Positions 16,353 to 39,890 of a stretch of DNA of 64,000 nt are shown one piece after another. Source of the stretch: Candidatus Bathyarchaeia archaeon (lineage in GTDB: Archaea; Thermoproteota; Bathyarchaeia; 40CM-2-53-6); NCBI GenBank assembly GCA_035935655.1, contig DASYWW010000013.1, positions 1 through 64,000 on the forward strand, in the 5' to 3' direction. Under the pieces are notes generated by a model. That model ran no database searches. It was given only the letters and a program-made list of their open reading frames with translations, and was not told where the DNA came from. A program made the position numbers and the translations under genes. Within the stretch, counting starts at the first letter, position 1. Every line of letters begins with the position of its first letter.

Positions 16353-16664
16353 TTGGGAACTCTCATCAAAGCGTGTTCCCTCTCAGAGCTCCCGCCCGGG
16401 ACAATGAAGGGAATAGAGCATGAAGGCAAGAGAATCCTAGTTGTCAATCTTGAAGGAGCTATCTCTGCATGGGATGGAACATGTACACATGAAGAGTACG
16501 ATCTTTCGATGGGCTTTCTCACCGGAGACAGCGTCACCTGTTCACTACACTTGTCACGTTTCAATCTACTAACCGGAGAAGCCGTTAATCCGCCCGCGGA
16601 GAAACCGCTTGGTAGACATCAAGTAAAGATATCCAATGGAGAAATCTTCGTCGAAGTAGAATGA
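16353..16664 (+). CDS. Rieske-type [2Fe-2S] ferredoxin
   Basis: Small soluble electron carrier. From a TTG at 16353 it is 104 residues. C44-x-H46 (GTCTHEE) and C63-x2-H66 (CSLHLSRF) are the Cys/His ligands of a Rieske cluster. A longer frame reaches back to 16224, but its first 43 residues are Arg-rich, lie inside sufD out of frame and look non-coding, so the TTG 8 bp after the sufD stop is preferred. Rieske proteins commonly travel with suf genes in archaea, perhaps as electron donors for assembly. Its stop overlaps the ATG at 16661. Confidence 0.85.
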   Translation: MGTLIKACSLSELPPGTMKGIEHEGKRILVVNLEGAISAWDGTCTHEEYDLSMGFLTGDSVTCSLHLSRFNLLTGEAVNPPAEKPLGRHQVKISNGEIFVEVE

Positions 16665-16852
16665 AGCATGCCAAAGCCCTAGCCTCGACTTTTTCCAATC
16701 AAGATTACTTCGCCTCGTCTGTTCTTACTCGCCCTCGCAGTTTCAAGTTACATGGCCCTTTAGTCAACTCAACCTACTCTTCACATCAATCACCGAACGG
16801 TTTCGATGTGGGACAACCAAGAACGAGGCGAAAGCGAGGAAAGAGGGTAGGT

Positions 16853-18460
16853 TTGTCGGATCTGAGAAGATACATTCTCCTTCCATTCCTAGCGGCGCTT
16901 CTATTCATCACAATCTTCAACCCTCCAGTTCACGCCGCAGGCGAAACCTACACTCTCACAACCTCTGTTGCTCGATTGCAGGAGAGTAACACCGCGAACA
17001 CTTTGCTCATTCTAAACGTGTCCATCGCTAGCACGCTCACGCCCTATGCATTCACGTGGCATGTAAAAGATCCAAGCGGTACCGTCCGTCAGGCCAACAA
17101 CCAAACCAATGCGCCGCATCCAGCGTCCTTCGTGGAGAGCGTTGCCTATCCTGGTAAATTTGGTGCAGGAGCGAGCCTATCATACACGGGCACTTACGCG
17201 GTATGGGTCAATCAGACCCAGCCACCGCTAGTAGGTTCAACGGGTGTGGCAAGCGGACAATTTCAAGTGGGTCTGACAGATGGTCTCAGCTATCCGAGAC
17301 TTGCTCCTGTCTCAATCAAGGCGGTAAATTATCAGCCCAACGGAAACGTAACCATCAGAGTCTCTGGCCTGAGCGGCCTCGTTGCGGGTTTTCCGCTAAA
17401 TAAGACAGCAGATGGCAGCGGTGTCCTCTCATACACTTGGCCGTCAATACCTGCCTCACTTCCCGTTGGGAACTACAACGTATCCCTCACAGGCATTCCC
17501 GCGAAAACCCCACCTGACATTCAATCCTTCAGTGTAACTGCGATCAATGTGACAATTTCTTCTCTAATCATCAGCCGAAGCTTATTGCAAACGTCTCAAA
17601 CCGAGGACTTCCGTTTCTCGGCCACGTATCCAAATGGTGCTTCGGTCAAAGTAGGTTCCGTGAATCTACGTCTAGTTGAGGCAGACGGATTGACATCCCA
17701 CTATGTCGTAATGGCTTATAGTTCGACTTTGGCCGCGTTTCATGGAAGCTTCCAAATCCCTCTGAGCAGCGATGTCGGTCCCTGGGTCGCCACAGTCGAG
17801 GTTAACAGCTTCGACGATGGTTATGGGAACAAGGGACCAATCTCAAGTGTGTTGAAGCCTTTCACAGTGTCACCGGCGATACTAAGTGTGTCTGCCAACA
17901 CGAACTACAACAACTACACAATCGGAGGCATCGTGGCGATCTACGCATCTGTCGTGACTCCTGGAGGGTATAACTTCACGACCGGGACGGTCACCGCTAC
18001 AACGTATCACTCTTCGAGCCGAATCGGTAGTCCATTATCATTGTTCTATGACGCGAGTCGAGGCAAATGGGTGGGCAGCTACACGGTCAACTCAACCAAT
18101 CCAGCTGGTATTTGGCAAATACAGATCAACGCAACGGATAGTTACGGAAACTCGGGGCAAGGCTCCACATCTACTCTAGTCAGCATCCCTCCCGCGACCC
18201 CTCCACCTCAGCAAAGTGCCACGTTCAATTATCTTCTAGTATTGCTGATAGTGATAATCGCTGGGTTTGCGGTTCTAGTTTCCTGGCTCGTCTTTGGGAG
18301 GCGAAGGGTTCTGAGAAGGGTGCTGAAGGTCGATCTTGAAGCGATCCATGCGGAGGCGAAGAAGGTTGCGAACCAGGATTTCTTCAAGAAGGTTCAGGAG
18401 CAACTGAAGCAGCAGAAAATGGAAAGCAGCGGAGGTAAGGACAAAGAGGCAAACGCTTAG
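16853..18460 (+). CDS. Secreted Ig-like repeat protein with C-terminal membrane anchor (paralogue 1)
   Basis: A surface protein, about 536 residues from the TTG at 16853. That start puts a signal peptide (YILLPFLAALLFITIF, ending PVHAAG) at the N-terminus and matches its paralogue at 38313. The open frame extends back to ATG 16661. Four or so beta-sandwich (Ig/big-like) modules follow. A single membrane helix near the end (FNYLLVLLIVIIAGFAVLVS) precedes a basic cytoplasmic tail with VDLEAIHAEAKKVANQDFF and a Lys/Gln-rich helix. The ectodomain and this tail are conserved in the second copy, which is coupled to a MinD ATPase. Here the upstream neighbour is the Rieske gene and no ATPase is adjacent. 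Confidence 0.75.
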   Translation: MSDLRRYILLPFLAALLFITIFNPPVHAAGETYTLTTSVARLQESNTANTLLILNVSIASTLTPYAFTWHVKDPSGTVRQANNQTNAPHPASFVESVAYPGKFGAGASLSYTGTYAVWVNQTQPPLVGSTGVASGQFQVGLTDGLSYPRLAPVSIKAVNYQPNGNVTIRVSGLSGLVAGFPLNKTADGSGVLSYTWPSIPASLPVGNYNVSLTGIPAKTPPDIQSFSVTAINVTISSLIISRSLLQTSQTEDFRFSATYPNGASVKVGSVNLRLVEADGLTSHYVVMAYSSTLAAFHGSFQIPLSSDVGPWVATVEVNSFDDGYGNKGPISSVLKPFTVSPAILSVSANTNYNNYTIGGIVAIYASVVTPGGYNFTTGTVTATTYHSSSRIGSPLSLFYDASRGKWVGSYTVNSTNPAGIWQIQINATDSYGNSGQGSTSTLVSIPPATPPPQQSATFNYLLVLLIVIIAGFAVLVSWLVFGRRRVLRRVLKVDLEAIHAEAKKVANQDFFKKVQEQLKQQKMESSGGKDKEANA

Positions 18461-21955: not shown

Positions 21956-22552
21956 TTGGTACCAGAGTTCTTCATGGTGCTGGGGATCTTTGTCTTCCTC
22001 GCCATGAGCATCCTAAGTGCCCTCCTTGAGAACGACTTGCCATCGATTCTTCAATACGTGTTCCAGGTAGTGGCTGGAGGGGGTCTTGGACTGCTTCTGA
22101 TGGATCAAGAATTCGTCAACATCGGAATGTTGGGCCGAAGCCTAACCGACCCGGCGCGCTTCATGATAAGCGTCGTCTACCTCGCATCAGCAATTTCCAT
22201 CGCAGCAGGGATCAACGTCTATCTTGCCATAATACGTCGGAAAATGGCTCTATCGTCAATCCTCTCGGGCACGGTGACAGTGCCTACATTCATGATTTCA
22301 GCGGTCCTCGTTTCATCCTTTCTTGCAACGGGAGGAGGCCTAACCTTCTCCCCCACAACAATATTGATTCTCGCAGTATCAGCCTTCGCAATCGGTCTAA
22401 GCTTGCTCGAGTTCCTCCGTGAGACGCGCATGCACGCCAGAAATTCCTCCGTTATAGCACGATTAGTGTCTGCTGGTCCAGTGTCAATACCCTCTATGCA
22501 AAGAAAAGATGACTGGGAGGAATCTCCGAAGAAAAAAGTGAGTGAAGGATAG
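21956..22552 (+). CDS. Multi-pass membrane protein of the surface locus
   Basis: A 198-residue protein with four predicted helices (about residues 3-25, 35-50, 67-90, 100-150 region) and a charged tail, RLVSAGPVSIPSMQRKDDWEE. The last helix plus tail (TTILILAVSAFAIGLSLLEFLRETR) is clearly related to the next gene (TIFILAVSAFIISVSMFAFLREAR). I know no family for it. It begins with a TTG or GTG near 21956 and ends 3 bp before the next start, so the pair forms an operon. Confidence 0.6.
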   Translation: MVPEFFMVLGIFVFLAMSILSALLENDLPSILQYVFQVVAGGGLGLLLMDQEFVNIGMLGRSLTDPARFMISVVYLASAISIAAGINVYLAIIRRKMALSSILSGTVTVPTFMISAVLVSSFLATGGGLTFSPTTILILAVSAFAIGLSLLEFLRETRMHARNSSVIARLVSAGPVSIPSMQRKDDWEESPKKKVSEG

Positions 22553-22555
22553 AAG

Positions 22556-22972
22556 ATGAAGAGCTTCAAACAGATTTTTGATCCAAGGAATGAAAAATTT
22601 CTCAGGTTGGGGCTCTTACTACTCTCGGCACTATTCATCGGTAGCGCGTCGATACTTTTCTATGATGGGATGGTCTCTGAGAAGCCACTCAGCGTGGGTG
22701 GTGGAGGCACGGGCACCACCGCGGCAAGCTCGACGACGCGAACCGTAGTAAACGTCTCGCCCCCAACAATATTCATTCTGGCAGTGTCGGCGTTCATTAT
22801 CAGTGTAAGCATGTTCGCATTTCTTCGTGAAGCGCGCAAGCACATCAGAATCTTATCAGATAAGAGCGGACCATTGCCAACCGGTTCGGGATCTATACCT
22901 CTAGGAAAGGAGGAGTGGGAGGAAGCTCCGAGGAACGACGATGAATCCTCTGCATCATCATCCTCCGGATAG
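22556..22972 (+). CDS. Two-helix membrane protein related to its upstream neighbour
   Basis: A 138-residue protein: one helix near residues 18-35, an extracellular Gly/Ser/Thr-rich loop, a second helix (residues about 75-95) and a cytoplasmic tail with GSIPLGKEEWEEAP followed by a Ser/Asp-rich end. The second helix and tail match the upstream protein. The ATG start is 3 bp after the upstream stop. Function is unknown; it may anchor or assemble the large surface protein encoded downstream. Confidence 0.6.
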   Translation: MKSFKQIFDPRNEKFLRLGLLLLSALFIGSASILFYDGMVSEKPLSVGGGGTGTTAASSTTRTVVNVSPPTIFILAVSAFIISVSMFAFLREARKHIRILSDKSGPLPTGSGSIPLGKEEWEEAPRNDDESSASSSSG

Positions 22973-23067
22973 TACCACCTCAGTTCGCGCTTGGTAACAC
23001 AGGCTAGAAGAGAGCGGCCGGCGCGCCTCCCGGAAGATATGGAGTGGGAAGGAGGTGAGTGTGTGAA

Positions 23068-23766
23068 TTGAAGTTTCTCAAAGTAGAATGGACAAAGAAG
23101 AGGAGTGCCATCGCACTCTTAGCAACAGGTTTGGTCGTCACGAGCTTCATTCTCGGTGGCTACGTAGCTACCGGGAACTTGAATCCATGGGGCAACAGAC
23201 ACTACTACCAGGTACTAAACGCGAACTTCCAAGAATGCTATACCCCTGCTGGCGGCGTTCCTGTGTGTCAATCAAGTCATAATGTACTGTTCAACACTGG
23301 TGCTCAGTATGTAGAGAAGTTGGTCATCTCCAACAACGAAGGCTTCTGTACCGTAGCGGCGGCTTGCAGCTTCCATTTCGTTGCTATGTCAAATAACGCC
23401 GTCGCTCCTACTGCTACCATGTCGTCCACGGGCACGACTACAGCTGCAACCAGCGGAGACTGCGGCGTCGCAGGAGGTACTGGAGGCGGTGGTCAGAACG
23501 GCTCAGAGCTTACGACTAACGGTTTCGCAGCTGCAGCAGGCGCAGTGACAGACATTTCAGGCAGTTCTCCACAAAGTTCGACCGTCATCAACACCTTCAC
23601 TGACAATACGGCTGCGACGACGGTCCAACAGAGTTGCTTAGTCAACCAAGCGGCGAACGGATCTGCCAACAGAGTCAACCTCGCCGCCGCAACCTTCACC
23701 GCCGTCACTCTCCAGATTGGAGACACCATACAGATAACGTGGACCATAACCTGGACCTGGAGCTAA
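23068..23766 (+). CDS. Secreted or pilin-like surface protein
   Basis: Probably 232 residues from a TTG at 23068. A strong ribosome-binding site GGAGGTGA (23051-23058) abuts the alternative GTG at 23059 with no spacer but lies about 10 bases before this TTG, which decides the start. A basic N-terminus (VEWTKKRS) is followed by one hydrophobic helix (AIALLATGLVVTSFILGGYVA), which could be an uncleaved anchor or a class III-type pilin signal. The rest is Thr/Ser/Ala/Gly-rich beta sequence with several Cys, ending in the aromatic WTITWTWS. No family is recognised. Confidence 0.6.
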   Translation: MKFLKVEWTKKRSAIALLATGLVVTSFILGGYVATGNLNPWGNRHYYQVLNANFQECYTPAGGVPVCQSSHNVLFNTGAQYVEKLVISNNEGFCTVAAACSFHFVAMSNNAVAPTATMSSTGTTTAATSGDCGVAGGTGGGGQNGSELTTNGFAAAAGAVTDISGSSPQSSTVINTFTDNTAATTVQQSCLVNQAANGSANRVNLAAATFTAVTLQIGDTIQITWTITWTWS

Positions 23767-23994
23767 GTGCCACGCATACGGCTGAAGAAAGCTAAACCGG
23801 AAACTCGGATGTTTCAATCTCCGAGTAACCTCCTACCGATCACCCATTGAGCATCAATGATGCTCGCTGAGCTAAGCCTCTGCTTTGTCTAGCAGTTTCG
23901 TATGCCAAACATCACTTGTTACAACATGCGTATTCACGCTGTATCGCACGTTACTCTGAAAGCCAGGACCAACTCATAGGTTTCTGGAGGGAAC

Positions 23995-26900
23995 TTGAAA
24001 GCGCGAAAATTATCACTGATCACACTATTGACGCTTGCAATTATTCTAGCGGTAAGCGTGCCCGTTGCTAACGCGACCAATAACGTTCACACTTTCTACC
24101 TTGGAAATTCTTCTGTAGGAACTTGTTCCGGCAAGTGTGAAGGCTTCACAACGGCGTCTGGGACCCCGGACACAGGGACGAGTCAGAGTATCAGCATCGG
24201 TAGTGCCCCTGCCATAGACTCGAATGCGAATGCGAAACAGACTGGAACATGGAGCACTGGTACTACTTTCACAATCACTGGACTAACCACGACCTCCAAT
24301 CCTGACTCGATTCTTGTTGTAGTGGTCGAAAATCCGACCTCAATTACAGTCTCGAGTCTTTCGGCTTCAGGCATCACATTCGACGCTTCCGCGCGACTAG
24401 CGTTCAATCCTGGTGGTGGCGCGGTATCAATCGAGGAATGGCATGGGGTTGCTTCAGGTACACTATCGTCTGTCACTATTACAGTGACTTTGAGTGGTAC
24501 TCCGACTTCAGCAAGCGGTGAAGCTATTGCAATAAATGGTGCTGAAGATCCTGCTGCATCCTTCACTGTCTGGGATAAGGCCGCGGGGTATCCTGGTACT
24601 GCATCCAAAACAAGTAGTGCCGGTGGTTCAACTTCCCCGGTCCTAGGGGGAGGTATTACGGCTTTGAACGCGAACGACTTGATTATTGCATTGTTCGGTT
24701 CTTCGAATGCAGTGACAGAAACCTCCGGTACTGGCTTTACTCTTGACCTGACTGTATCTTCCACCGCGTCCATTGCTGTTGAGCACAAGACGGACACTTC
24801 TCCAACTGCTGAAACTTGTCCATACGGAACTAGCAACCAGAGATGGGTTCTCATTTGTGATGCTTACCAGTCTGCTCCAAAGTATTTCGTCGTCAACCCT
24901 GATGTTGCTTCGACCACAACAAGCGCTAGTCCGAGCACCTCGACGCCGAGTGGATATGCATGGATTTACAACACTGCTGGTATCCAGCCTAACCTGAACG
25001 ACATACAGTCAGGGACCTGGCAGATTGATGAAACTACCAGCTGGATTTCAATAGGTGGATCTCCGAAAGGCTTTCTCTTTGCAACAGCATGGCAATGTGC
25101 CACCAACAGTCTTGGAACATGCACCAACATCTGGAAGAATTGGGATACCGTTACAAACATCATGGGTACAACCACAACGACCAAGAATACCTACACCACA
25201 GCAAGCATCGCGCAGCTCAACGGTTGGGCTGGTAAGTATCTTGCTGTCGAATATTTTGTTGTCATCCAGTACTCGGCTTTAACTACCGCGAGTACGATGA
25301 CCGAGACTACTGTCTCCACAGCCTCAGATGTTATCTCTCCCGGATGGGATCTCGCTACGGGTCTCAGCAGCTCCCTAACCCAAGCCTCAACGTTTACTGA
25401 GCACAGTTCCTTGCTCAGGTCTTTCTCTGATTCGCTAGGTCTTGTAAGTGCCCAATCCCAGTCTCACGGTCTTGTTAGGTCGCTCACAGACTCGTTGTCC
25501 TCCGCCGCAAGTCTTGCCGAGAAGAATTCGCTCTTTAGATCTCTAACCGGCTCGCTAACATTAACCTCAACTGTCACAGTGAAGAGTGGAATCCTCAGAA
25601 CGCTCTCCGCCTCAATTGCAATCACACTCGGCAATATGGTTGCAAACGTAGATTCCGGAAAGATGATTTGTAACTCTAGTCCTCGCTCCTGTTCAACCAG
25701 CCTGACCGCAACTTGGACTATCACCGCAGGTCTTGCCCAAGGTCGTGCCTACTTCAGGTCCCTAACTGGCTCAATGTCCTTTACTACTTCTCAGGCTAAG
25801 GGCTTTGCAAAAGCTTTCACTAGTTCGCTATCCCCTGCCTCAAGTCTTGTGGAGAAAAGCTCCTTTTTCAAATCGCTGACTAGTTCACTAACTCTAGCCT
25901 CGGCCTTTGCCGAACACTCTTCAGTGTTTAGATCTTTGGCCGGCTCGATCACTCTCGCTTCCGGTTTTCTGGAGAAATCTTCTCTCTTCAGGTCGTTTAG
26001 TGATTCGTTGTCTCCGTCCACAGGTTTTGCACCTAAGAATTCTCTGTTTAGGTCTTTTACAGGTTCATTTTCTCTGGCGGCATCCGAGGTGAAGAGTTTC
26101 GTCAGGGGTTTGACCGGTTCGCTCGGATCTAGTTCGACTTTTGCAGAGAAGAGTTCGCTGTTCAGATCTCTGACTGGGTCTCTATCTTTGGGCTCGGGTT
26201 TGGGGGAGCATACTGCGCTCTTTAGATCTCTGAGTGGATCGTGGACGATAACTTCTGGCTTTGTTGAGAAGTCTTCGATCTTTAGGTCTTTGACTAGTTC
26301 GTTTACCATGACTTCCAGTTTCGCTGGGCATAGTTCATTGTTCAGATCTTTAACGGGTTCGGTAGCTTCGGCGTCAAGTTTTGTCGAACGATCTGCCCTG
26401 TTCAGGTCGTTTTCCGGCTCGCTAGGTATTGCTATTTCTGAGAGTAAGGGTTTTCCGAGAACATTAACTGCATCATTGTCTTCGGTCTCAAGTTTTGCAG
26501 ATCACGTTTCGTTGTCCAGAGCCTTCTCTGACAGTCTGGGCTTTGCAAGTTCGGTGTTGAAGGCCCGAGCGGTAGGATTGAGTATTACGGTCGGGTCATC
26601 CGCTAGTCTTTCCGAGAAGAATATGCTGTTTAGAACTGTGACTGGTTCGCTGGGCTCTGCATCGGGTCTATTGGAAAAGAGTTCGTGGTTTAGGTCTCTC
26701 AGCGGTTCTCTGAACTTAGCCTCTGGGTTAGTTGAAGGGAGATTGTTCTTCAAATCTTTGAGTGCATCTATGTCTCTCGCGTCGAGCATAGCTGAAAAGA
26801 ATACACTGTTCAGGTCGATGACCGCATCTCTGACATCGACTTCAAGCTTTGCTGAGAAAACTTCGTTCTTCAGATCATTCACAGGCTCATTGGGATCCTC

Positions 26901-29900
26901 CTCAGGCCTTACTGAGAAGGGATCCTTCTACAGATCACTAAGCGGCACAGTAGCCATGGCCTCAAGTTTCGCCCAACATATTTCGGCGTTCAGATCCCTG
27001 ACTGGTTCACTCTCTCTCGCCGCTGCTGAGACCAAAGGCCTTACCAGGTCTTTCACTAGTTCCCTAGGATCATCCTCATTTTTCGCCGAAAGGAGTTCAT
27101 TGTTCAGATCGCTGACTGACTCGCTCGGTTTTGCTGAGTCTCAAAGCAAAGGCTTTGGCAAGTTCTTGACTGCATCACTAGCTGGCTCCTCGAGTATTGC
27201 GGAGAAGAATTCATTCTTTAGAACCTTCATCGATTCTCTGGGATTAGCTGGTTCTCTAACCAGAGGTCGCTCTGTAAGCTTGAGTGCCTCAATGGGATCA
27301 GCCTCTAGTCTTGTGGAGAGAAGTTCATTCCTTAGGTCTTTCATCGACTCTCTGGGTCTTGCGAGTTCTCTTCTCAGAGGACGAACAGTGACGCTGAGTG
27401 CTTCCCTGGGCTCAGTCTCAAGCCTTACCGAGCACAACTCACTGTTTAGAACTCTTAGTGGTTCGCTGAGTCTCGCTAGCTCCTTCTTCAGAGGTCGCAC
27501 CATTAACTTGATCACATCCATAGGGCCATCTACAAGCTTTGCCGAAAAAAGTTCGTGGTTTAGATCATTCGCTGACTCGATGTCTTGGACCTCGAGTTTT
27601 GCAAAGCAAAATTCGTTCTCGAGAGTTTTGAGCAGTTCGCTCGCTATGGCCTCAAGCCTTGCAGAGAAAACCTCTGCCTTCAGATCCCTGTCAGGCTCCC
27701 TGACATCAACTTCAGGTTTTGCTGAGAGAAGCTTACTGTTCAGGTCTCTAAGTGCCGCACTAGGCTCATCCTCGAACCTTGTGGAGAAAGCGTCCTTCTA
27801 CAGGTTGCTAAGCGATTCAGTAGCCTCGGCGTCAAGCTTTGCCGAAAAGGGCCTGTTCATCAAATCAATGTCTAGTTCCTTGGGGATCATGAGTTCTGAG
27901 ACTAAGGGATTCGTTAGAGGCTTTAGTGCCTCCGTAGGCTCAGTTTCAGGCTTTGTAGAGCATGCTTCATTTTTCAGGTCTTTTGCCAGTTCCATAACTG
28001 TTGGAACTTCCTTCTTCAGAGGTCGTACAGTGAACTTGAGCGCCTCACTAGGATCATCTTCAAGTTTCGCTGAGCACACATCATTGTTTAGATCTCTAAC
28101 CGACTCTCTGAGCCTTGCAGGTTCTTCGTCTAGAGCCCGGACCGAAGTCTTGACTGCGTCGCTAGGATCGGTCTCAGGTTTCGTGGAACACGGATCGTTC
28201 TTCAGATCTCTCAGCGACTCGTTGAGTTTTGTGGCTTCTTTCTTCAGAGGCCGCACCGTAAACCTGAGCGCGTCATTAGGTTCATCCTCAAGCTTTACTG
28301 AGCATACTTCACTGTTTAGATCTTTGACCAATGCGCTTGGTTCAGCCTCCGGTTTCGCCGAGCATGTTGCACTATTCAGGTCTCTATCTGGGTCAATTGC
28401 TTCGGCCTCAAGCTTTCTAGAACACTCGTCAGTCTTCCGATCCCCGACTACCTCAATAGGTTCAACTTCAGTTTTCAGCGAAAAGAGTTCATTGGTTAGA
28501 TCTCTTGCCATGTCATTAGGTTCATCCTCAGGTCTGCTGGAGAAATCTTCCTACTTCCGCTCTTTGAGCGATTCATTGGCGATGAGTTCAAGTCTTGTGG
28601 AAAAGGGGGCGTTCGTCAAGTCTCTGTTCAGCTCGCTAGGCCTTTCAAGTTCTGAGAACAAGGCCTTTGCTCGGACTCTGGGCGCTTCGCTAGGCTCAAC
28701 TTCCAGTTTTGTAGAACACGCTTCAGTGTTCAGGTCCTTAACCGATTCTCTTGGCCTCGGAACCTCCTTCTTTAGAGGTCGAACAGTGACCTTGAGCGCT
28801 TCATTTGGTTCAACCTCAAGTTTTGTAGAACACATCTCACTCTTCAGAACCCTGTCTGATTCGTTGGGTTTTGCAGAATCATTCTTCAGAGGTCGTACCG
28901 TAACCCTAACCGCGTCAGTGGGTTCAGCCACGGGTTTTGTAGAGCATGCTTCAATGTTCAGATCTCTCAGCGACTCACTGGGTCTTGTAGCCTCCTTCTT
29001 CAGAGGACGCACAGTCAACTTGAGCACCAACCTCGGTTCGGCTTCAAGCATCGCCGAACACTATTCGTTCTTCAGGGCTTTCACTGGTGCACTTGGTTCG
29101 GCTTCGAGTCTCGTAGAGCACACTTCGTTGTTCAGGTATCTTTCCGGTTCGCTTGCATCGGCCTCAAGTCTCATCGAGAAATCATCGCTTTACAGGTCTC
29201 TGACCGGTTCGTTCTCGTGGACTACCGGACCTGCTGGGAGGACTCTGTTGTACAGGACTTTCAGTACTTCGTTCGGCCAAGCGTCTAGCGCGTCAGATCA
29301 CTCTTCGTGGATCAGATCTCTCTCCGGGTCAATGGCTTCAGCTTCGAGTGTCGCTGAGAAGAACTCGTTGTTCAGGTCTTTGAGCGGCACGCTAACCTCG
29401 GCTGGTTCTCAGACCAAGGGTTTCGGTTGGGTTTTGACAGGTTCGCTGGGATCAGGATCAGGATCTGCGGAGCATGTTTCGCTATTCAGGTCGCTAGCTG
29501 ATTTTCTGGGTCTTGGGACTTCCATCTTGAAAGGTCGCTCTATAACCCTGATCGCTTCCATAGGATCAGGCTCGGGTATTAGTGAGAATCGCTCGTTCTT
29601 CAGAACTTTTAGCGATTCGGTGAGTTTTGTGGCTTCTTTCTTCAGAGGACGTGCTATCTACCTGGGTGCTTCGGTAGGTTCAACTTCGGGTTCTGCGGAC
29701 CAGGTTTCGTTCTATAGATCTCTGACCGACTCAGTGACGTTCGCTTCGGGTTCTGGAGAAAAGCTCTCATTGTTCAGGTCTTTGAGCGGCTCGTGGACAA
29801 TGCACGGGAGCCGTGGTTTGCTATTCATAGAGAACCTTGGTGGGAGCTTCAACACGAGAACGGGTATCTCTGGACACTCTGACTGTTCCGAGACCATTAT

Positions 29901-30078
29901 CAGCAACTGCGGCAGTTCAACCGCTTCCTTTGCGTTTCTAGTACTTGGCATTGGAGTTTCAATTTTTGGCGTCTACGCAGTCAAACAACGCCGACGAGTT
30001 CGCGCGCCCAGGTCAGAGAAAAAGGATGAGAAAGTTATCGTTGATCCAGAAGGCTGGGAAACGAAGCATAGGAGCTAG
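23995..30078 (+). CDS. Giant 2,027-residue surface protein with 20-residue tandem repeats
   Basis: Starts at TTG 23995 behind a GGAGGG site. A signal peptide (LITLLTLAIILAVSVPVANA) covers residues 7-27. Residues about 30-450 form a beta-rich Thr/Ser domain. From about 458 to 1935 the chain is a near-continuous run of 20-residue units of the type E[KH]SSLFRSLTGSLxxASxF, interleaved with a second type, SFFRGRTVNLSASLGSxS. A break near residues 545-570 and a segment near 1955 each hold a Cys pair. A single membrane helix (SFAFLVLGIGVSIFGVYAV, about 1975-1993) and a short basic cytoplasmic tail with DPEGWETK close it. This looks like a membrane-anchored surface stalk or adhesin. No known repeat family is recognised. 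Confidence 0.8.
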   Translation: MKARKLSLITLLTLAIILAVSVPVANATNNVHTFYLGNSSVGTCSGKCEGFTTASGTPDTGTSQSISIGSAPAIDSNANAKQTGTWSTGTTFTITGLTTTSNPDSILVVVVENPTSITVSSLSASGITFDASARLAFNPGGGAVSIEEWHGVASGTLSSVTITVTLSGTPTSASGEAIAINGAEDPAASFTVWDKAAGYPGTASKTSSAGGSTSPVLGGGITALNANDLIIALFGSSNAVTETSGTGFTLDLTVSSTASIAVEHKTDTSPTAETCPYGTSNQRWVLICDAYQSAPKYFVVNPDVASTTTSASPSTSTPSGYAWIYNTAGIQPNLNDIQSGTWQIDETTSWISIGGSPKGFLFATAWQCATNSLGTCTNIWKNWDTVTNIMGTTTTTKNTYTTASIAQLNGWAGKYLAVEYFVVIQYSALTTASTMTETTVSTASDVISPGWDLATGLSSSLTQASTFTEHSSLLRSFSDSLGLVSAQSQSHGLVRSLTDSLSSAASLAEKNSLFRSLTGSLTLTSTVTVKSGILRTLSASIAITLGNMVANVDSGKMICNSSPRSCSTSLTATWTITAGLAQGRAYFRSLTGSMSFTTSQAKGFAKAFTSSLSPASSLVEKSSFFKSLTSSLTLASAFAEHSSVFRSLAGSITLASGFLEKSSLFRSFSDSLSPSTGFAPKNSLFRSFTGSFSLAASEVKSFVRGLTGSLGSSSTFAEKSSLFRSLTGSLSLGSGLGEHTALFRSLSGSWTITSGFVEKSSIFRSLTSSFTMTSSFAGHSSLFRSLTGSVASASSFVERSALFRSFSGSLGIAISESKGFPRTLTASLSSVSSFADHVSLSRAFSDSLGFASSVLKARAVGLSITVGSSASLSEKNMLFRTVTGSLGSASGLLEKSSWFRSLSGSLNLASGLVEGRLFFKSLSASMSLASSIAEKNTLFRSMTASLTSTSSFAEKTSFFRSFTGSLGSSSGLTEKGSFYRSLSGTVAMASSFAQHISAFRSLTGSLSLAAAETKGLTRSFTSSLGSSSFFAERSSLFRSLTDSLGFAESQSKGFGKFLTASLAGSSSIAEKNSFFRTFIDSLGLAGSLTRGRSVSLSASMGSASSLVERSSFLRSFIDSLGLASSLLRGRTVTLSASLGSVSSLTEHNSLFRTLSGSLSLASSFFRGRTINLITSIGPSTSFAEKSSWFRSFADSMSWTSSFAKQNSFSRVLSSSLAMASSLAEKTSAFRSLSGSLTSTSGFAERSLLFRSLSAALGSSSNLVEKASFYRLLSDSVASASSFAEKGLFIKSMSSSLGIMSSETKGFVRGFSASVGSVSGFVEHASFFRSFASSITVGTSFFRGRTVNLSASLGSSSSFAEHTSLFRSLTDSLSLAGSSSRARTEVLTASLGSVSGFVEHGSFFRSLSDSLSFVASFFRGRTVNLSASLGSSSSFTEHTSLFRSLTNALGSASGFAEHVALFRSLSGSIASASSFLEHSSVFRSPTTSIGSTSVFSEKSSLVRSLAMSLGSSSGLLEKSSYFRSLSDSLAMSSSLVEKGAFVKSLFSSLGLSSSENKAFARTLGASLGSTSSFVEHASVFRSLTDSLGLGTSFFRGRTVTLSASFGSTSSFVEHISLFRTLSDSLGFAESFFRGRTVTLTASVGSATGFVEHASMFRSLSDSLGLVASFFRGRTVNLSTNLGSASSIAEHYSFFRAFTGALGSASSLVEHTSLFRYLSGSLASASSLIEKSSLYRSLTGSFSWTTGPAGRTLLYRTFSTSFGQASSASDHSSWIRSLSGSMASASSVAEKNSLFRSLSGTLTSAGSQTKGFGWVLTGSLGSGSGSAEHVSLFRSLADFLGLGTSILKGRSITLIASIGSGSGISENRSFFRTFSDSVSFVASFFRGRAIYLGASVGSTSGSADQVSFYRSLTDSVTFASGSGEKLSLFRSLSGSWTMHGSRGLLFIENLGGSFNTRTGISGHSDCSETIISNCGSSTASFAFLVLGIGVSIFGVYAVKQRRRVRAPRSEKKDEKVIVDPEGWETKHRS
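25370..29800 (+). repeat. About 74 tandem 60-bp units coding for 20-residue repeats
   Basis: The reading frame repeats with a 60-base period for about 4.4 kb. The units are diverged at the DNA level but keep positions such as TTCAGRTC followed by a TCR/TTG pair, so they look like old duplications held by selection on the protein. Insertions are nearly always whole units. Confidence 0.75.
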
Positions 30079-31387: not shown

Positions 31388-31750
31388 CTAGCGGAGAAGC
31401 CTAACGTTCGTACCCTGAGGGTTCTCTTCTATCAGCCGAAACAAGGGAATACATCTCCCTCCAGCTTTCTCAATCTTCACAAGAGCTCTAGGCGAGAACT
31501 TGAAGGCTGCTATCGTAAGCTTTTCTTTCGGTATTCCAGATCCCAGAACCTTTCCTGGGACAACGATAACATCTCCGGCCTTGGCAAGTCTCGACACTTG
31601 TCCTAGGTTGAGAACTATTCTAGTTCTTCGTGACTTCCCCAGGAAGCTTGCGACTGTTAGCCAGAGGGGGGCTTGGTGTTGCCTGCCAGCACGTTTGAGA
31701 TAACTTATCGTGTTCAGCATTTCTGGATTGGTAGGTCGATGGTCTCGCAT
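31388..31750 (-). CDS. rpl18e: 50S ribosomal protein L18e
   Basis: Large-subunit protein of archaea and eukaryotes. The domain runs from RDHRPTNPEMLNTISYLKRAGRQ through VIVPGKVLGSGIPKEKLTIAAFKFS. ATG 31750 is chosen over a start 16 codons upstream because it gives 120 residues, the family length, and has a GAGGAG site about 8 bases before it. It is next to tRNA-Val and upstream of the pyruvate kinase gene on the same strand. Confidence 0.93.
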   Translation of the reverse strand: MRDHRPTNPEMLNTISYLKRAGRQHQAPLWLTVASFLGKSRRTRIVLNLGQVSRLAKAGDVIVVPGKVLGSGIPKEKLTIAAFKFSPRALVKIEKAGGRCIPLFRLIEENPQGTNVRLLR

Positions 31751-31850
31751 GGAGGACTCCTCTTGGCAGGGAAGCGTTTCATCCTGAATCGGTACCAATA
31801 AAGCCTTTGGAGATCAAGCTCGAATTTCTGAACATCAGCGTTGGTAGTGA

Positions 31851-38312: not shown

Positions 38313-39890
38313 TTGCAAAGACGTCTACTCAAGCTTGCCCCGTTCTTAGTACTAGTAGTCAGTATCATGTTCTCCGGTTTCTCAAACCAAGCTAGAGCAG
38401 TAGAAATGTACAGCCTGATCTCTTCTCCAAGCAGGATCTTGGAATCAACTTCCTCAGGCGTAACAGTCACCATCTCGGTAAACAACGCCCTGTATTCTCC
38501 TCCGACCCCCTACGTGTTTTCCTGGTCCGTCACAGATCCATCGGGCACCTCACGGTCCGCTACAAGCAACGTCGTCTCTACGACCCCTTCATGGTCATTC
38601 TCGAAGATCTATCCGGCCAATTTCAGCGGTGCTTCCCTAAGCCTTCCAGGAGTATACTCTGTTAACGTATCAGAAAGTCTGCCCACTTCATCTGCAAATG
38701 TGGTGACGGGCACATTCACTGTGGCTATTACCGATAGTAGCTCCTATCAGCGAACCTACCCGGTCGGAATGCAGGCTGGGGGTTATCTGCCCACTGACCT
38801 TGTCAATGTAACAATCACTCGGTCCGGTAATCCAGTCGCAACGCTCTCAACGTCAAGGACAGCGGATAGCAATGGTTTAGTCACAGCCTCCTGGCCGACC
38901 CTCCCCGGCACAAGTACAGGAAATTACACCGTAGCCGTAGTTGGAAAAAACACTCTCCCAAAGGCAGTTCCTGACACGCAACAGTTCATGATTTATCCGA
39001 CAAACATCACCACGACAGGATTCACTACCGGGACGACTTCCCTGGAGAGATCGGAGACCCAGGGATTCAGATTTGATGCGTCCTACTTAGCCGGACAAGC
39101 AGCTACTCAAGCATCATCGATGATCCGGCTCACCGAACCAGATGGACTGACGACACATCTTGTGCCCGCATCATACAATTCCACGCTCGGAAGTTATGCT
39201 GCGGCCTTCCCAGTCCCGATGAGTGCTCAAACTGGAACCTGGACTGCTTACCTGGATCAAAAAAGTCTCACGGACCCCTACGGGAACGGCGGTCCACTCC
39301 AAACCGCTAGCTCGACATTCAATGTACTCCCCGCCATCCTCTTAGTTACGCTGGCATCGCCCGGCACAGTCTTCGCCGTCGGAGACACACTTACGATTCA
39401 AGCGACGGTGGTCGTCCCAGGCGGAGCCGTCTTCAATCAAGGAGCGGTACAATCCTCAATGACACTTTCTGGCAAGCAGGTAGGATCCCACTTGAGTCTC
39501 ACATACGATCCCACCCGCGGACAATGGATCGGGAACTACAAGATTACCGCGTCCGACCCGTCGGGCACTTGGCTCGTAACTGTGAGCGCATCTGATAATT
39601 ACGGAAACACGGGTCAAAGCTCAGTCGTCGAGTCAGTCAACGTTTCCAGCGCACAATCAACTTCCATGCTCTGGAGCTACATTGTGATTGTACTTCTACT
39701 CGGAGTCCTCGGTTTCATCATACTAATCACCCGAAAGAGAGGATTGAGCCGAAGAGAAGTGAAACTCGATCTCACGGCCATCAAGACCCAGGCAGACAAG
39801 GTGAAGGGCGACGATTTCCTACAATCAATTCACGATCAGCTGCAGAGGAAGAAAAAGGAAGCAGGGTTAGAGAAGCTGGATCATGACTAG
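38313..39890 (+). CDS. Secreted Ig-like repeat protein with C-terminal membrane anchor (paralogue 2)
   Basis: A 525-residue surface protein starting at TTG 38313 with a signal peptide (LAPFLVLVVSIMFSGFSNQARA). Ig-like beta modules fill residues about 30-445, then a membrane helix (YIVIVLLLGVLGFIILI) and a cytoplasmic tail VKLDLTAIKTQADKVKGDDFL with a Lys-rich helix. It aligns with the protein at 16853-18460 from end to end. The stop overlaps the start of the MinD gene by 8 bp (ATGACTAG), so membrane protein and ATPase are made together. Confidence 0.78.
   Translation: MQRRLLKLAPFLVLVVSIMFSGFSNQARAVEMYSLISSPSRILESTSSGVTVTISVNNALYSPPTPYVFSWSVTDPSGTSRSATSNVVSTTPSWSFSKIYPANFSGASLSLPGVYSVNVSESLPTSSANVVTGTFTVAITDSSSYQRTYPVGMQAGGYLPTDLVNVTITRSGNPVATLSTSRTADSNGLVTASWPTLPGTSTGNYTVAVVGKNTLPKAVPDTQQFMIYPTNITTTGFTTGTTSLERSETQGFRFDASYLAGQAATQASSMIRLTEPDGLTTHLVPASYNSTLGSYAAAFPVPMSAQTGTWTAYLDQKSLTDPYGNGGPLQTASSTFNVLPAILLVTLASPGTVFAVGDTLTIQATVVVPGGAVFNQGAVQSSMTLSGKQVGSHLSLTYDPTRGQWIGNYKITASDPSGTWLVTVSASDNYGNTGQSSVVESVNVSSAQSTSMLWSYIVIVLLLGVLGFIILITRKRGLSRREVKLDLTAIKTQADKVKGDDFLQSIHDQLQRKKKEAGLEKLDHD

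Follow-up and report, generated by a model that had tools for sequence, protein, structure and literature searches.

A giant membrane-anchored stalk protein built of two-length repeats, and its conserved gene cassette, in Bathyarchaeia

A giant membrane-anchored protein at the locus

The window analysed here is a stretch of 64,000 nucleotides from a Candidatus Bathyarchaeia archaeon (genome G000), comprising positions 1 to 64,000 of the forward strand of contig DASYWW010000013.1 (assembly GCA_035935655.1). It encodes a giant protein in a single open reading frame (ORF), where a signal peptide and a beta-rich head are followed by a long stalk of short repeat units and a C-terminal transmembrane helix. 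The features of the gene, with the evidence for each where applicable, are as follows.

23986–23991, + strand: GGAGGG, 3 nt upstream of the TTG start
23995–30078, + strand: giant membrane-anchored stalk protein, 2,027 residues, single uninterrupted ORF, TTG start
23995–24078, + strand: signal peptide, about residues 1–28, MKARKLSLITLLTLAIILAVSVPVANAT (sequence; position kept in homologues)
24088–25353, + strand: type I head, residues 32–453, beta-rich (alignment; AlphaFold2 strands)
24184–24555, + strand: beta-sandwich part (residues 64–187) of a domain inserted in the head (AlphaFold2; alignment gap)
25354–29814, + strand: stalk of 76 repeat units, residues 454–1940 (1,487 residues; segmentation, autocorrelation)
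25594–25692, + strand: 33-residue insert unit, residues 534–566, GNMVANVDSGKMICNSSPRSC (segmentation, alignment)
27103–27858, + strand: 252-residue super-repeat, copy 1, residues 1037–1288
27859–28614, + strand: super-repeat, copy 2, residues 1289–1540, pattern bAbAbAbAAAAAA
28615–29370, + strand: super-repeat, copy 3, residues 1541–1792
29923–29982, + strand: C-terminal transmembrane helix ASFAFLVLGIGVSIFGVYAV, residues 1977–1996 (sequence, homologues)
30049–30066, + strand: cytosolic tail motif EGWETK within VIVDPEGWETK (homologue comparison)

Alignment of the type I heads reveals conserved HTFY..C..C, PDV, SGYAWVYNT, DIQSGTW and KNWDT motifs. A short linker with a conserved Cys pair (SDC..NCG) precedes the transmembrane helix, and a cytosolic tail of 31 residues follows it. 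Both the signal peptide and the C-terminal helix are read from the sequence and conserved in homologues, as expected of a cell-surface anchor. The initial annotation, made by a model from the letters alone, had described a giant, uninterrupted protein displayed on the cell surface, and the ORF, signal peptide, head and helix, together with the homologues, support this.

Repeat units of two lengths

The residue-identity autocorrelation of the array peaks at 20, 38, 58, 60, 76 and 78 residues. Iterated-profile segmentation resolves the array into 76 units with spacings of 20 residues (A units, 54 occurrences), 18 residues (b units, 20 occurrences) and 33 residues (one occurrence). The array had been described as a constant run of about 74 units of 20 residues, or 60 bp; its length of about 4.46 kb and its unbroken frame stand, but the units measure either 20 or 18 residues and number 76. 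The A-unit consensus is F-R-S-L-S-G-S-L-G-S-A-S-S-F-A-E-K-S-S-L, and the b unit is an A unit minus two residues in its second half. The proposal of two alternating unit types needs redrawing along these lines, as the supposed FRGRTVNLSASLG type is the junction of an 18-residue unit (...SFFRGR) with the next 20-residue unit (TVNLSASLG...). Serine makes up about 27% of the array, in agreement with the very high content noted at the outset, and threonine about 8%.

The order of the units follows a simple grammar. Every 18-residue unit of the window protein is followed by one of 20, and 13 units combine into the 252-residue super-repeat. Across 21 ORFs of the family, spacings are 20 (675 times) or 18 (397 times), apart from two 19s and a small number of insert units; in most homologues such an insert, in 33- or 39-residue variants, lies early in the stalk. 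As the homologues keep the same spacing, the 18/20 pattern is not a product of chance, and the restriction to two lengths may stem from a pair of ancestral units, a structural constraint, or both. Family-wide, 361 of the 18-residue units precede a 20-residue unit and 33 do not, these exceptions lying nearly all in L048, L049, L051 and L053. The start of each unit varies with its predecessor, being mostly F-R after a 20-residue unit and mostly A/T followed by K/V/R after one of 18. Among the 675 A units, leucine is conserved at positions 4 (87%) and 8 (69%), glutamate at position 16 (77%) and S/T/D/N at position 13 (65%), with an S-x-x-E-type helix cap in 326.

The units are strongly diverged in DNA. 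Mean identity between A units is 51% (maximum 78%) and is lowest at the third codon position (0.37 vs 0.52 and 0.65), the 252-residue super-repeats share 59–62%, and Tandem Repeats Finder returned two short rows only for the array. An assembly expansion or collapse, which had been named as a possible refutation, is ruled out, because DNA identity between units is only about 51% and the family turns up again in independent metagenome-assembled genomes (MAGs), 17 genomes in all. A phage origin was also rejected, neither a phage collection nor PHROGs giving a match.

Homologues and head exchange

Searches using either the full-length protein or the repeat profile place homologues in the window's genus and in two further genera of one GTDB family (17 genomes, including G000). 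These searches found none in the rest of the order, and isolated weak matches at class level (G040, G108) were unconvincing. The homologues derive from independent MAGs, mostly of soil origin to judge by isolate names, that are recorded as Candidatus Bathyarchaeota and archaeon 13_2_20CM_2_53_6. Scanning genome contigs with the single protein as query gave 82 pattern matches, none of which was confirmed; with the head alignment as query, the scan did find homologues.

Heads are exchanged between species, and the number of stalk units varies between them, from 42 to 101 in complete homologues. The type I heads of L043 and L047 show an alignment gap in place of the inserted domain, while L040, L041 and L051 carry a different, type II head. 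L036 and L037 have another copy of the type I head, about 207 residues long, inserted within the stalk. L051 has two tandem copies of the giant protein with different heads, and G014 has repeats on three contigs. Apparent frameshifts that break a few homologues (L044, L036) are probably MAG errors. Separately, contig C62 of G000 carries a 267-residue ORF (L052, about 77001–77369) that is weakly similar (32% identity, E 2e-5) to the domain inserted in the head.

Similar repeats in ammonia-oxidising archaea

Sequence searches of the giant protein against Pfam, PHROGs, PADLOC and the PDB gave no usable match, with PDB matches to reovirus sigma-1 (E 0.035) and haemagglutinin at chance level and no Pfam match to a known stalk domain in the array. 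In NCBIfam, a marginal match to NF033849 (ser_rich_anae_1; E 9e-4; 16.7 bits where the curated cut-off is 650; 269 residues covered) reflects a shared serine-rich, repetitive stretch and is probably compositional.

The repeat profile was also scanned against 398 genomes of the phylum. Matches outside the giant-protein family fell mainly in giant ORFs of 873–5,212 residues, from family f29 and one 2.8-Mb genome, with E values down to 1.9e-16. All ten host genomes tested carry archaeal AmoA, showing that the hosts are ammonia oxidisers. Their repeats (loci L099, L100, L102, L104, L105 and L106) are of the SLTENLGMTD / TITDSLSTDD type, for example TRTITDSLSTDDSIAVSASF and SLTENLGMTDAVTKSITK, and no Pfam model covers them convincingly. 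The initial statement that the repeat belongs to no known family thus stands for Pfam, PHROGs, PADLOC and the PDB, is touched marginally by NCBIfam, and does not extend to a repeat unique to the window family, as the profiles detect these giants.

The two sets of proteins share very large ORFs, the core [RK]-[ST]-[LIM]-[ST]-[DEG]-[ST]-[LI]-[GS] and a mostly 18/20 spacing (149 and 136, respectively, of about 335 ammonia-oxidiser spacings between 14 and 25). The ammonia-oxidiser repeats differ in having Asp/Glu where the window family has Gly, Ala or Ser, and the heads and ends of the proteins differ as well. Alignment of the two repeats by hhalign gave a probability of 94.8 (E 5e-8). In a register test that included the core motif columns, register 0 was best and 1 of 1,000 column shuffles reached its value, a significant result; with those columns removed, 137 of 1,000 did, which is not significant. 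In control searches, shuffled sequences scored nothing, whereas reversed sequences of some, though not all, relatives did score. Taken from sequence comparison, common descent of the two repeats is likely, with convergence as the alternative. At L106 (6948–11876, + strand), a frame of 1,643 codons also stays open on the strand complementary to the repeat array, probably an effect of periodic codons.

Fold of the head and stalk

An AlphaFold2 model of the head and first units is confident only for a beta-sandwich at about residues 64–187 (predicted local distance difference test, pLDDT, about 70–94 over most of it). A Foldseek search of the head model against the PDB returned nothing at E ≤ 1e-3, the best matches being reelin and antigen I/II at a template modelling (TM) score of about 0.1. 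The stalk was modelled as 13 units (252 residues) from a 76-row alignment. A superhelical or solenoid stalk had been suggested initially; the model gives this no support, returning helices of low confidence, with a mean pLDDT of 56, a predicted TM-score (pTM) of 0.21 and low-confidence breaks lying mostly in A units that follow a b unit.

Hydrophobicity periodicity was examined alongside. In the giant-protein family the power has maxima near 105 and 70 degrees and little strength at 180 degrees, and the lag-2 autocorrelation is -0.26 to -0.30; since the peaks lie near harmonics of the 18/20-residue unit, they are weak evidence. The ammonia-oxidiser relatives L099 and L102 show a strand-like periodicity at 180 degrees.

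Three forms of stalk were weighed, of which we lean slightly towards a helical one. Tentatively, the stalk may be a long amphipathic alpha-helical rod or bundle, with an S-x-x-E helix cap and a Gly stop in its units; b units would link two of them into a single long helix. The helices in both AlphaFold2 models, the placing of the breaks in the 252-residue model after b units, the peak near 105 degrees with low power at 180, and the conservation at positions 13 and 16 are consistent with such a rod, whereas the pLDDT and pTM values, the strand-like periodicity of L099 and L102, and a serine share and glycine number unusual in long helices are not; in addition, a two-residue difference in length would turn the face of a continuous helix by about 200 degrees. 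That difference would instead preserve in/out alternation in a beta-solenoid or beta-spiral, expected at first from the even unit lengths and somewhat more doubtful than the helical rod. The almost exclusively even lengths, the composition rich in S/T/G/L and the 180-degree periodicity of some ammonia-oxidiser relatives suit a beta fold, but AlphaFold2 predicts no strands in the array, the lengths may come from two ancestral units, and the negative lag-2 autocorrelation and low 180-degree power of the giant-protein family itself give it no support. Either fold would be compatible with an adhesive role. Least likely of the three is a Ser/Thr-rich brush that is mostly disordered and heavily O-glycosylated, resembling bacterial serine-rich repeat proteins; the serine and threonine content and low pLDDT would fit, but strict unit length and conserved L4, L8 and E16 over the 675 A units point to a folded unit.

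A conserved gene cassette and a common tail motif

Three genes directly precede that of the giant protein.

21956–22552, + strand: membrane protein, 198 residues, cytosolic tail motif DDWEESP (DNA 22511–22528)
22556–22972, + strand: membrane protein, 138 residues, cytosolic tail motif EEWEEAP (DNA 22913–22930)
23059–23766, + strand: conserved 235-residue protein, secreted or membrane-anchored, directly upstream of the giant gene

The gene order SufC, 198-residue protein, 138-residue protein, 235-residue protein, giant protein, MscL and MarC is kept genus-wide wherever contigs reach, with few exceptions. A Pfam search of the three upstream proteins gave no match. The 235-residue protein occurs in 16 genomes, 15 of them with the giant protein and the sixteenth (G008) with a truncated copy only, and thus has the same phyletic range. 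The same gene order is present in L063, titled ‘bacterium isolate Centralia_MAG_577’, most likely a mislabelled Bathyarchaeia MAG.

The tails of the 198- and 138-residue proteins are divergent except for the W-E motif, with WEESP in nearly all homologues. Where the C-terminus of the giant protein is retained, the sequence ends in VDxEGWETK or something close to it, and a second copy, EGWETKPEG, is frequent. By sequence comparison, the three neighbouring membrane proteins share a Trp-Glu tail motif that is kept genus-wide, and the three tails may bind one shared cytosolic partner. The whole genome contains four occurrences of a DNA pattern for [DE]WEE[SA]P, two of them in the cassette genes and two at places that are not recognisable membrane-protein tails. 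The latter were dismissed as chance, the DWEESP on C11 lying in a small ORF on the strand opposite a longer one and the occurrence on C52 not lying in a matching tail. Both the conserved cassette, with its two membrane proteins and a secreted one, and the motif of the three membrane proteins are new in this analysis.

Elsewhere in the window, 16661–18460 and 38313–39890 encode paralogous MG2-domain surface proteins with C-terminal transmembrane helices, the second followed by a ParA/MinD-like gene. A ribosomal protein L18e-like gene (31388–31798; Pfam L18/L18e, E 2e-9) lies between MarC and pyruvate kinase.

Proposed function

Bacterial fibrillar adhesins are described as having three parts, an anchor, a stalk of repeats and a region that mediates adhesion (PMC9210967, PMC8286594). 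From what these papers describe, the giant protein resembles them in its large size, N-terminal head, repetitive stalk and C-terminal anchor. The stalk, at 76 units over 1,487 residues, is of matching extent, although the rod shape itself was not seen in the model. The differences are that the protein is archaeal, is held by a transmembrane helix rather than a sortase motif, and has no known adhesive or stalk domain, for which reason we do not file it as a fibrillar adhesin on domain grounds; the likeness is one of architecture. Periscope proteins (SasG, Rib, Sgo_0707) are likewise stalks of variable unit number with a distal head, the number varying between species in the family described here, but their repeats are described as long and highly identical in DNA (PMC8201768), whereas the units here span 18–20 residues, and neither the A units nor the super-repeats approach such identity. 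The parts of these three papers drawn on here make no mention of archaea, and we found no description of the giant-protein family in the literature, within an incomplete coverage.

We consider it probable that the giant protein is an archaeal surface stalk protein acting like a bacterial fibrillar adhesin. This reading draws on the order of signal peptide, head, stalk and transmembrane helix, on the 16 relatives with homologues, with their 42–101 units and exchanged heads, and on the conserved gene order, the phyletic range of the 235-residue protein, the tail motifs, and the core and spacing shared with the ammonia-oxidiser giants. The signal peptide would export the protein and the single C-terminal helix would anchor it, so that the serine-rich, two-length-repeat stalk could hold one or more exchangeable beta-sandwich heads off the membrane. 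The heads might then bind a ligand on other cells, on mineral or organic surfaces, or on glycans. Stalk length would change in evolution through gain or loss of units and 252-residue blocks, and the EGWETK tail, echoed as DWEESP / EWEEAP in the neighbours, may dock stalk and partners alike to one shared component in the cytosol. Several points weigh against this reading: no known adhesive domain was matched by Pfam in the protein and the other heads gave chance-level matches only, the stalk model is of low confidence, and the tail motif is short. Moreover, as periscope-protein repeats diverge far less from one another than these units do, the variation gives no indication of rapid length switching.

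The protein could instead belong to a surface layer (S-layer). SlaB of Sulfolobales is an S-layer anchor with a head, an elongated stalk and a C-terminal transmembrane anchor, to which the giant protein may be likened by architecture. It would then serve as a SlaB-like membrane-anchored spacer, its heads forming or contacting the lattice and the 235-residue protein acting as lattice partner. We regard this as unlikely; the single C-terminal helix, the N-terminal beta-rich head and the adjacent conserved secreted protein would suit such a role, but the stalk is far longer than that of SlaB, and its variable unit number and swapped heads are unlike a fixed lattice spacer, as are the repeats on three contigs of G014 and the tandem copies of L051.

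A more speculative reading, to which we give little weight, is that the four-gene cassette constitutes an undescribed archaeal envelope system. In it, the Trp-Glu tail motif would link a giant stalk with a novel repeat fold, its obligate small partner at the surface and the two membrane proteins to one cytosolic hub, and contact on the outside could thereby be passed to the interior as a signal or through mechanical coupling. The cassette adjoins the MscL channel gene.

To our knowledge, the surface proteins of soil Bathyarchaeia are essentially uncharacterised. In this context, the giant-protein family is a candidate contact organelle for a whole genus, built on an uncatalogued type of short repeat on which giant proteins of ammonia-oxidising archaea may be based as well, and its tail provides a compact candidate intracellular docking motif common to three adjacent membrane proteins.

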